From Hydrogenophaga sp. (lineage in GTDB: Bacteria; Pseudomonadota; Gammaproteobacteria; Burkholderiales; Burkholderiaceae_C): a DNA stretch of 64,000 nucleotides. Position 1 is the first letter of the stretch. The number at the start of each line of letters is the position of its first letter. The stretch covers positions 62,001-126,000 of the forward strand of contig NZ_JAHBZK010000014.1 of NCBI RefSeq assembly GCF_019635465.1. Reading direction: 5' to 3'. This document shows, piece after piece, positions 23,018-38,488 of this stretch. Below the pieces are notes generated by a model. That model worked only from the letters and a program-made list of their open reading frames with translations. It made no database searches and was not told the DNA's origin. The translations under genes were made by a program, and so were the position numbers.

Positions 23018-24139
23018 TCAGCCGCGGTAATACCGGTTGGGCACGAACGGCATGGGGGCCACCACCATGGGCACGGGCTTGCCGCGCACCAGGGCGTTCA
23101 CGCGGGTGCCCGCCGCGGCCAGCGCAGGGGGCAGGTAGCCCATGGCAATGGGCTGGTTGATGCTGGGGCCGAGCAGGCCGCTGGTGACTTCGCCCATGCG
23201 TTCACCGGCTTCGCTGTGCAACTCGGTGTGGTCGCGCACCGGCACGCGCTCCTGCGCGATCAGGCCCACGCGCACGCGTTGCGCCGGCCGGGTGCCATCC
23301 AGCTGCGCCAGCACGCGATCGGCGCCGGGGAAGCCGCCGGCGCGCGCACCGCCGGTGCGGCGCACCTTCTGCATGGCCCAGTTGAGCGCGGCCTCTACCG
23401 GCGTGGTGGTGGTGTCGATGTCGTTGCCGTACAGGCACAGACCGGCTTCCAGCCGCAGCGAGTTGCGCGCGCCCAGGCCCACGGGCTTGACCTCGGGTTG
23501 CGCCAGCAGCGCACGCGCAAAGGCCTCGGTGTCGGCCGCGGCCAGCGAAAGCTCGAAGCCGTCTTCGCCGGTGTAGCCGCTGCGGGTGGCGAACACCGGC
23601 TTGCCTTTCCACTCGAAGGCGCCGCCGGTCATGAAGACCAGTTTCTCGACGCCGGGCAGCAGGCGCTGCAGCGCAGTGACGGCCTGCGGGCCCTGCAAGG
23701 CCAGCAGGCCACGGTCGAATTGGGGCTCGACCGCGCAGCGTGAGCCAATGCGATCGACGATGTGCTTCAGGTCCCCGTGTTTGCAGGCGCCATTGACGAT
23801 CACGAAGAGGTGGTCGTCGCGGTTGACGAACATCAGGTCGTCGATGATCGTGCCCTCGTCGGTGAGCAGCAGGCCGTAGCGCTGCTTGCCCGGCGCCAAG
23901 CCGATCACGTCCACCGGCATCAGGCGCTCGAAGGCGGTCGCCGCGTCCGGACCGATCAAGCGCAGCTGCCCCATGTGGGAGACGTCGAACAGGCCGGCCG
24001 CACTGCGGGTGTGCAGGTGCTCGGCCATCAGGCCCGCCGGGTACTGCACCGGCATGCTGTAGCCGGCAAAAGGCACCATGCGCGCACCCAGTTCGAGGTG
24101 CAGGGCGTGCAGCGGGGTTTGAAGCAAGGGATCGGTCAA
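23018..24139 (-). CDS. gcvT: Aminomethyltransferase, glycine cleavage T protein
   Basis: The protein has 373 residues and releases ammonia from the GcvH-bound intermediate and forms methylene-tetrahydrofolate. Landmarks are [22 protein letters not shown], the folate-site [19 protein letters not shown] near residue 95, and [13 protein letters not shown] near 190. [13 protein letters not shown] and the C-terminal GEVTSG block follow. The frame is open further upstream, but TTG at 24139 is chosen: it gives the family N-terminus ([24 protein letters not shown]) and has an AGAGAG ribosome site. Upstream of this codon begins the riboswitch expression platform. Confidence 0.94.
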
Positions 24140-24200
24140 GGCGGACTCTCTGGCTGGGGCAGGCCCCCGATGGGGCGAAGCACGGCGCGTGCCGTGTGCT

Positions 24201-24675
24201 GCCCCACTGTCCGCTTTACCTGAGAGATTCGCGCGGGCGATGCCGCGTTTGCTCCTTCGGTGGACCCGTTGCCGGGCCTCTCTCCAGGGGGGATCGCCCG
24301 CCTCGCGGCGCGCGTTTGCCAGTCCTTTTGCCTGAGCGTTCGGGGCTGGCATCAGCCCCTGCGCCTTCGGCGGTTCCACAAGGGGTGCTCTGCAAAACCC
24401 GCGCCGTGCGCGCCGCGATCTGGCGGGATGAGCCGCAAGGCGCGAATGCCAGGGCAAGCCCGGACGGCTTGCCCGCATTCGCAACGCAGCGGATCGCCCG
24501 CCAGATCGCGGCCCTTCGGGTTCGGCCCACAACGGGCGTCTGGCGCACCTGTTGGCTTGTGTGTGCCACCGGCACACACGGCGCCAAGCAGGCACGCCAT
24601 CCATCCCGTTGTGGACCCGAACGCGCATGGCGGGGGTTTTGCAGAGCATCCCTAGGGAACACTCTCCTGAACAAT
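24201..24675 (-). ncRNA. Tandem glycine riboswitch (gcvT leader), aptamer I split by an insertion
   Basis: On the minus strand both glycine aptamers are recognisable. Aptamer II (about 24201-24288) has CTGGAGAG, CCACCGAAGGAGCAAA, AATCTCTCAGGTAAA and GGACAG, with CUG/CAG and CCCC/GGGG forming P1. Aptamer I has its 3' part at about 24310-24378 (GCCGAAGG, GAACGCTCAGGC, AAAAGGACTGG). Its 5' part lies at 24656-24675 (UUGUUCAGGAGAGUGUUCC) on the far side of a 269-bp insert. UUG/CAA with UCAG/CUGG rebuilds P1, GGAGAG meets CGCUC for P2, and GUUCC/GGAAC forms P3. A -10 TAGAAT lies at 24688-24683 and predicts a start near 24675. GGGGCAG can alternatively pair with CTGCCCC just before the gcvT start. 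Confidence 0.88.
24383..24651. mobile_element. MITE-like inverted-repeat element (269 bp) inserted in the glycine riboswitch
   Basis: The ends are 30-bp terminal inverted repeats with 27 matches: 24383-24412 against 24622-24651, outer sequence GG(G/A)TGCTCTGCAAAACCC. Flanks are CAAG (24379-24382) and CTAG (24652-24655), a probable 4-bp target duplication with one change. The interior has two large nested hairpins. The first is a perfect 16-bp stem (24412-24427 with 24497-24512) enclosing GCGAATGC and GGGCAAGCC stems. The second is a stem 24520-24536 with 24605-24622 enclosing a 26-bp stem around 24568. No coding capacity. The 4-bp target and end type recall IS5-like elements, but the parent family is not identified. 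Confidence 0.75.
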
Positions 24676-24682
24676 GCGGCGG

Positions 24683-24688
24683 ATTCTA
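24683..24688 (-). promoter_or_regulatory. -10 element of the gcvT leader promoter
   Basis: TAGAAT on the minus strand lies 7 nt before an A at 24675, where the riboswitch P1 stem would begin. The -35 region is poor. Confidence 0.5.
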
Positions 24689-24746
24689 GCCGGGAACCTC
24701 CGTGCACTCCTTCGATCGCAAGCCGGTCGTCACCTTGATCCTTCAC

Positions 24747-25628
24747 ATGAACCGCCGTCGTTTGCTCAGTTCCTTGTCCGCGCTTGCGGCCGTCACACCG
24801 CTGGTGGAAGCAGCCACCGGTGGAGCTGCCCCGCGACAGCGCATGCCGGTGATCTTCATCGGCCACGGCAGCCCGATGAACGCCATCTCGGACAACGCCT
24901 TCACCCAGACACTGGCGGCCTGGGGTCAGCGCCTGCCACGCCCGGCGGCCATCCTGTCGGTGTCGGCGCACTGGCTGACGCCTGGCGCCACCCTGGTGGA
25001 CGTGCAGGCCCGCCCGCGCACCATTCACGACTTCGGTGGCTTTCCGCAGGCGCTGCACGACATGCAGTACCCCGCGCCGGGCGCGCCCGAAACCGCGCAG
25101 ATCGTGCGCGCGCTGGTCAAGTCGCGCAAGGTGGCCGAGAGCGACGACTGGGGGCTGGACCATGGCACCTGGACGGTGCTCCATCACCTGATTCCGAAGG
25201 CGGAGGTGCCGACCTTCCAGTTGTCGATCGACTACTCGGCCCCCGGGGCGGTGCACCACGCGCTGGGGCGCGAGCTGGCCGCCCTGCGCGATCGGGGTGT
25301 GCTGATCGTGGGCAGCGGCAACATCGTGCACAACCTCCGTGCCACGGTGCGCAATGCGCCGCCTTCGGCTGCGGGGGCGACGCCCTGGGCGCGAGACTTC
25401 GATGCCGCCGTGCGCGATGCCTTGGCAGACCGAAGCTTTCAGAACGAACAGCGCCTCATGCAGTACGAACGCCTGGGTGCGGGCGCGGCCATGGCCGTGC
25501 CCACGCCCGATCACTACTGGCCGTTCCTGTATGCGCTGGGCGCCAGCGATCCGCGCGAGAAGCTGACCACTACCTACGAGGGCTTTCACGCCGGCACGCT
25601 GTCGATGCGCTGCCTGCAGTGGGGGTGA
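24747..25628 (+). CDS. LigB-family extradiol dioxygenase (DODA/YgiD-like)
   Basis: The protein has 293 residues. The body matches the class III extradiol dioxygenase superfamily: IFIGHGSPMNA with an iron-ligand histidine, SVSAHWLTPG with a second histidine, the DWGLDHGTWTVLHHLIP block, and a C-terminal HYWPFLYALGA and TTYEGFHAGTLSMR. Family members open catechol rings such as DOPA. A twin-arginine-like leader, NRRRLLSSLSALAAVTPLVEA, precedes it, so the enzyme may be exported folded. A GTG at 24702 is an alternative start. It is divergent from the gcv leader and their promoters share about 70 bp. Confidence 0.85.
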   Translation: MNRRRLLSSLSALAAVTPLVEAATGGAAPRQRMPVIFIGHGSPMNAISDNAFTQTLAAWGQRLPRPAAILSVSAHWLTPGATLVDVQARPRTIHDFGGFPQALHDMQYPAPGAPETAQIVRALVKSRKVAESDDWGLDHGTWTVLHHLIPKAEVPTFQLSIDYSAPGAVHHALGRELAALRDRGVLIVGSGNIVHNLRATVRNAPPSAAGATPWARDFDAAVRDALADRSFQNEQRLMQYERLGAGAAMAVPTPDHYWPFLYALGASDPREKLTTTYEGFHAGTLSMRCLQWG

Positions 25629-38298: not shown

Positions 38299-38309
38299 CC
38301 CGCCTCATC

Positions 38310-38424
38310 CCGTCATTGGGGAGTAGCCGCCCGGTGCCCAGCGCATCGGGGCTCGCGTCAACAGACTTGGCCCGCAGGCCATGGCGCGCGCAGCTTCCAG
38401 CCTGGCAAGACCTTTGACCGTACC
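38310..38424 (+). ncRNA. yybP-ykoY (Mn2+) riboswitch
   Basis: The aptamer is recognisable from the conserved GGGGAGTAGCCGCCCGGTGCC at its 5' side, the internal TCAACA and the 3' part GCCTGGCAAGACCTTTGACC. It lies upstream of a UPF0016 manganese-exporter gene, the classical partner in beta- and gamma-proteobacteria. Family members sense Mn2+ and raise expression. A terminator with T-run follows directly, giving a transcriptional ON switch. Confidence 0.9.
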
Positions 38425-38466
38425 GCCTCCGCACGCGCCGGGGAGGCGTTGCGGTCTTTGGTTTTT
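38416..38466 (+). terminator. Riboswitch-controlled terminator
   Basis: GACCG and CGCCTCC pair with GGAGGCG and CGGTC, with a small internal loop, followed by TTTGGTTTTT. The 5' arm overlaps the P1 strand of the aptamer, the usual mutually exclusive design. Confidence 0.75.
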
Positions 38467-38488
38467 CTGCCGGCCGTTGGAGTTTTCC

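Follow-up and report, generated by a model that had tools for sequence, protein, structure and literature searches.

A putative IS5-type miniature element within the first aptamer of the gcvT glycine riboswitch of a Hydrogenophaga species

In the genome of a Hydrogenophaga species, the tandem glycine riboswitch upstream of gcvT has a first aptamer that is split by 269 bp of additional sequence. This locus raises the question of what the insert is and whether an aptamer interrupted in this way could still form and answer glycine. Our analysis of the window, by which we mean the whole stretch of 64,000 nucleotides, points with a probability of roughly two in three to an IS5-type miniature element (MITE) lodged in the P2 loop of aptamer I, with an aptamer core that would still be able to form and a glycine response about as it was before. 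The publications cited below by PMC number are drawn on in the form of excerpts.

Layout of the interrupted riboswitch

The riboswitch lies on the minus strand and consists of the interrupted aptamer I and an uninterrupted aptamer II. Its parts, together with two other features of the window, are as follows:

24667..24674, minus strand: 5' strand of aptamer I P1 (UUG-U-UCAG, one unpaired U), from the sequence, in canonical pairing with 24316-24322
24662..24667, minus strand: GGAGAG box of aptamer I, the first G of which also closes P1; CAGGAGAG in the window and in 28 of 28 congener leaders
24656..24660, minus strand: 5' strand of aptamer I P2 (GUUCC), from the sequence
24652..24655, minus strand: 5' flank CTAG, one copy of the putative target-site duplication
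24383..24651, minus strand: putative IS5-type MITE of 269 bp with terminal inverted repeats and two long hairpin arms, from its copies, fold and ends
24379..24382, minus strand: 3' flank CTTG, imperfect second copy of the putative target-site duplication
24373..24377, minus strand: 3' strand of aptamer I P2 (GGAAC), from the sequence
24330..24371, minus strand: aptamer I P3 with P3b, from the Rfam structure, canonical pairs and conserved blocks
24316..24322, minus strand: 3' strand of aptamer I P1 (CUGGCAA), from the sequence and canonical pairs
24197..24297, minus strand: aptamer II, uninterrupted (RF00504, 60.4 bits)
23018..24139, minus strand: gcvT coding region; the TTG start at 24139 is our own reading of the open frame
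38306-38485, plus strand: manganese riboswitch (yybP-ykoY, RF00080), 96.3 bits
41427-41497, minus strand: tRNA gene (Rfam, 64.6 bits), anticodon CCC (glycine) by eye

Read along the minus strand, aptamer I runs CAGGAGAG-T-GTTCC-CTAG-(24651..24383, 269 bp)-CTTG-T-GGAAC-CGCCGAAGG. As it stands it scores 28.2 bits against RF00504, in an alignment that misuses the 3' end of the insert as P1; this is below the 32-bit cut-off, so a tandem riboswitch of this kind can be miscounted as a singleton in an RNA-family scan. The sequence confirmed the boundaries of the insert given in a preliminary description of this DNA, as well as its claim that removal of 24383-24651 with one flank copy rebuilds the aptamer. 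In the joined aptamer I, the P2 segment measures 16 nt and closes as a 5-bp stem with a 5-nt loop, the P3 segment measures 26 nt, and all of the 25 designated pairs are canonical (P1 7, P2 5, P3 6, P3b 7). Both segment lengths are those of the two nearest congeners, L076 and L082, and the unpaired U of P1 has a counterpart in L076, where an unpaired C occupies the same place.

The preliminary description had assigned the insert to the loop of P3. This label was wrong, since the interrupted hairpin directly follows GGAGAG and is therefore P2 by the helix order of the Rfam structure; the P3b pseudoknot of PMC13104608 fits this naming. In the excerpt of a cryo-EM preprint (PMC12060979), P1 and P3 of both aptamers belong to a well-resolved torso and P2 and P4 of aptamer I to a poorly resolved leg, which implies that the insert extends a helix outside the torso. 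Against the idea that P2 is unimportant, the P2 and P3 stems of aptamer 1 are described as highly conserved in the gcv riboswitches of Bacilli (PMC6944388).

Two further observations concern this locus. An open frame of 543 codons (window 23018-24649, minus strand) starts at an ATG in the element and continues through both aptamers into gcvT, so automatic annotation could put the gcvT start inside the element. The gcvT riboswitch was also the only tandem glycine riboswitch found in this genome; many congeners (G001 among them) have a second tandem elsewhere.

Copies, ends and relatives of the insert

The genome carrying the window (29 contigs, 88% complete) contains four full copies of the insert, with 100, 96, 93 and 92% identity, and one lone end. 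Full copies measure 269-271 bp and carry no transposase gene, and the three outside the riboswitch lie, by our own reading, between open frames. IS5 elements make YTAR target duplications. In the orientation of the window, the flanks of the four copies fit YTAR or come near to it; they are CTAG/CTAG (L002, the only perfect pair), TTAG/CTAG (L003), CTAA/TTAG (L004) and CTAG/CTTG (the window). The preliminary description had spoken of a duplicated 4-bp flank; the flanks are indeed present, and the putative duplication is imperfect because those of the window copy differ at one base. Its view of the insert as resembling a mobile element was borne out by a multicopy family with insertion sequence ends and by the precise insertion in the loop.

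A pattern search with the ends revealed inverted pairs of element-like ends about 1 kb apart in the congeners G001 and G003. Open frames of 331 residues lie between inverted ends (GGGAAGGTCTGCACAACC and GGGATGGTGTTCAAAACC) in G001 (L118) and G008 (L125); the corresponding frame in G003 has only 218 residues. The two frames match the IS5-family model NF033581 at 355 and 342 bits, as well as Pfam DDE_Tnp_1 and DUF772. Three of their four ends are preceded by CTA and one by CCA, and the ends are close, not identical, to those of the element. A search of the window's own genome, run without a positive control on an assembly that is 88% complete, returned no match to the L125 protein. Given the four copies, the CTAG-like 4-bp flanks and the occurrence in congeners of autonomous IS5-family elements whose ends closely resemble its own, the insert is best read from its sequence as a non-autonomous IS5-type MITE, which would presumably be moved by an IS5-family transposase acting in trans.

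The two ends of each copy resemble one another more than they resemble those of other copies. This was seen over the outer 22 pairs of six full copies (L001-L004, L011 and L107) from three sources, namely the window's own genome, G007 and PHCQ01000033.1, with the degenerate L012 and L020 left out: a mean of 21.0 pairs match within a copy versus 18.2 between copies, and the true matching of arms was the only one of 720 permutations to reach its score. Eight of the 22 outer pairs had changed on both sides. Such paired changes would fit palindrome correction in replication or a transposase that needs two matching ends, and as either process would produce the same pattern, we rejected the idea that the covariation proves a function at the RNA level. 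The ends of L011, for their part, resemble those of the L125 IS5-family element.

Outside its own genome, the element was matched at E <= 0.001 in 9 of 59 other relatives, comprising eight congeners and one more distant genome; the matches were strong in G004, G005, G007 and G032, and weak or marginal in the rest. In the family sample, only two of the 120 genomes, the window's own included, had a match at E <= 1e-6. A full copy is also present in PHCQ01000033.1, a metagenome-assembled genome of the Betaproteobacteria. The element was rejected as a known RNA family or a plasmid-borne sequence, as four of its loci gave 0 Rfam matches and no plasmid match was found. In G007, a short GGTGTTCTGCAAGAGCACCCC stretch resembling the element ends was noted downstream of aptamer II (L065); it is absent from the leader of G005.

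Effect of the insert on aptamer I

A gcvT-type aptamer pair was present in 28 of the 35 congeners, each represented by one genome per species, and none was listed for the other seven; the 28 leaders were compared with the window. Insert-free relatives, which the preliminary description had proposed to look for, made up the whole set: aptamer I is uninterrupted in 28/28, its P2 segment (16-27 nt) closes in every case, and each leader aligns over at least 520 bases, from P3 of aptamer I into gcvT. Within this sample, the species of the window is therefore the only one to carry the insertion. By identity from aptamer I P3 to the gcvT start, the nearest congeners are G022 (L076, 87.5%) and G028 (L082, 83.9%).

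Three blocks found in all 28 leaders, CAGGAGAG, CGCCGAAGGCGCAG and GAACGCTCAGGCAAAAGGACTG, are intact in the window. Outside P2, its aptamer I is 0.889 identical to L082 and 0.870 to L076, values similar to those of aptamer II (0.882 and 0.892, respectively); between L076 and L082 themselves, the identities are 0.962 and 0.976. When the 29 sequences are ordered by mean identity to the rest, the window's aptamer I, P2 set aside, comes fifth from the bottom. From these comparisons aptamer I appears to be free of clear decay, as a young insertion would be in any case.

The insert is strongly self-complementary (-207.7 kcal/mol, z = -13.6, 0 of 200 shuffles as low). When aptamer I was folded alone, enforcing its 25 pairs cost 2.3 kcal/mol with the insert and 2.9 without it, against a mean of 7.3 when the insert was shuffled (100 controls) and of 7.8 when random pieces of the window took its place (100 controls); one control in each set of 100 had a cost as low. 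The pair probability of P2 was 0.97 with the real insert, 0.20 in the joined aptamer, 0.07 with shuffled and 0.03 with random inserts. The effect on P3 is weak, as 15 of 100 controls per set reached the real value. In the RNA with both aptamers, the core score of the real insert was reached by 0/100 controls of either set. The pair probability of P1 was 0.08 with the insert and 0.02 without it in aptamer I alone, and near 0 in the two-aptamer RNA, where the scored helices of aptamer II were weak as well. Since P1 is weak in every model and the energy model leaves out ligand and tertiary contacts, the scope of these folds is limited to P2 and P3 of aptamer I. Within that scope, they agree with the suggestion of the preliminary description that the complementary ends of the insert extend the hairpin, as the predicted fold lets the designated aptamer pairs form.

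The three other copies and the reverse complements of all four also cost 2.3 kcal/mol when modelled in the P2 loop in place of the window copy, so that tolerance looks generic to a self-closed element in either orientation. When the element was moved along aptamer I of the two-aptamer model in steps of three positions, P2 and P3 jointly fared best with the P2 loop as the site (0.99 and 0.85). We do not claim it as the sole tolerated site, as a few other positions kept both helices above 0.7, among them one between P2 and P3 (0.71, 0.75) and one in the 3' strand of P1 (0.71, 0.81).

Taken as a MITE insertion with a conserved response, the locus would have arisen when a non-autonomous IS5-type element inserted at a CTAG-like site within the loop that closes P2 of aptamer I. 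The ends of the element would pair with each other, extending P2, and its interior would close as two hairpin arms; with the ends paired and the interior self-closed, the element would take no pairing partners from the aptamer, so that P2 and P3 could form. The sequences of the ligand pocket would have been left untouched. The outcome would be a riboswitch with a giant P2, perhaps later to fold because 269 nt separate its two strands, and from the modelled folds we infer that it would have retained its answer to glycine.

The main rival, unlikely in our judgement, is that the insert damages aptamer I through slow or wrong folding, RNase III cleavage or early termination, and that the switch works on aptamer II alone, in an early stage of the decay from tandem to singleton that is proposed in the excerpt of PMC6944388. 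The predicted weakness of P1, the low rank of aptamer I in mean identity and the long helices of the insert, which may plausibly be RNase III targets, are consistent with it. As first-aptamer mutations are reported to have the largest effect in vivo in B. subtilis (PMC5666159), one would expect regulation to suffer from an insert that did damage. Against damage stand the intact core blocks, the similar identities of aptamers I and II to the nearest congeners, and a core that costs no more to enforce than without the insert; moreover, a consensus scan of 24100-24800 returned 0 terminator-like as well as 0 promoter-like sites.

It is also conceivable, if quite improbable, that the element was retained because it retuned the gcv operon to advantage. 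Its position in a regulatory leader permits this; however, the element occupies the leader of one species only, and any copy in either orientation has the same predicted fold cost, which reveals no special fit of the window copy. We therefore rejected its adaptation to the riboswitch as unnecessary. The preliminary description had also proposed retention because the folding of the element keeps the riboswitch working; as the other copies cost the same in the models, no selection on the window copy would be needed. That a repeat copy was misjoined into the leader, conceivable in a draft of 29 contigs, 88% complete, with a repeated element, is hardly credible given that the window copy differs by 4-8% from the others, is embedded in a contig of 134 kb and, bordered by target-like flanks, occupies precisely the P2 loop of an aptamer that closes without it.

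Other leaders and related systems

Glycine aptamers were found in 135 of 150 genomes of the family, and 11 of the 135, the window's own included, had an odd count. Among the other ten we inspected the lone aptamers of nine, leaving out G163 (at a contig edge) as well as the genomes with even counts. At 8/9 loci both aptamers were visible by eye and there was no large insert; at the ninth (L138, G129) the second aptamer was not visible in the stretch, where deletion and insertion are indistinguishable. Widespread insertion into glycine aptamers is therefore not supported by the family survey.

Among 12 order-level leaders, three inserts were spotted by eye. Two of them, from two other families, lie in the P3 loop of aptamer II: a palindrome in G059 (L090) that occurs, this place included, at nine genomic places with at most 2 mismatches, and a stretch in G039 (L097) with three other partial matches. 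Repeats in glycine-aptamer loops thus occur elsewhere. In G051 (L094), P2 of aptamer I is longer by about 100 nt with internal repeats; this stretch is single-copy in its genome, which leaves it at most a candidate mobile element. Longer P2 segments were seen in L096 and L099 as well.

The terminal inverted repeats shared with congener IS5-family elements, the CTAG-like 4-bp flanks and the lack of its own transposase liken the element to IS5-family MITEs; it differs from them in outer ends that vary between copies yet match within a copy, and in its place inside a riboswitch aptamer. Rickettsia palindromic elements (RPEs), which sit in tmRNA and RNase P (M1) RNA, are likewise small mobile repeats in functional structured RNA and are thought to be neutral (PMC2229807), although they belong to another element family and host and occupy RNA genes instead of a riboswitch aptamer. 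Intervening sequences (IVS) of 23S rRNA are also inserts in a hairpin of a structured RNA; unlike the window insert, which offers long predicted helices only, they are excised by RNase III, and that of Coxiella holds an ORF (PMC4990558). By analogy with the Coxiella IVS, the long helices of the insert are plausible RNase III substrates. An unlikely reading is a two-piece riboswitch, in which RNase III trims the extended P2 in the manner of an rRNA IVS and aptamer I binds glycine as a two-strand duplex. In its general form, self-closed MITEs would be insulated cassettes able to slip into the hairpin loops of regulatory RNAs and leave them intact, and family searches would overlook such RNAs.

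A BOX element is likewise a structured repeat in a riboswitch leader, located between two T-box riboswitches (PMC3049150) instead of inside an aptamer helix. The Betaproteobacterial repeat element (BRE), compared here by its description and not by its sequence, is also a dispersed repeat, of Comamonadaceae and other Betaproteobacteria, but measures 75-91 bp and is often in tandem (PMC3110155). The excerpt of a MITE review (PMC10969869) merely conjectures about riboswitches, and our search of the open-access literature, subscription papers aside, brought up no riboswitch aptamer described as containing a mobile element. Repeats inside functional RNAs as such are already known from RPEs, IVS and the BOX element.

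In summary, this locus may be regarded as a natural insertion experiment on a riboswitch, the prediction from it being that a folded domain of 269 nt can be accommodated in the P2 loop of a glycine aptamer. Furthermore, it suggests a route by which a transposon with inverted repeats may approach neutrality in a structured RNA, that is, by closing on itself.
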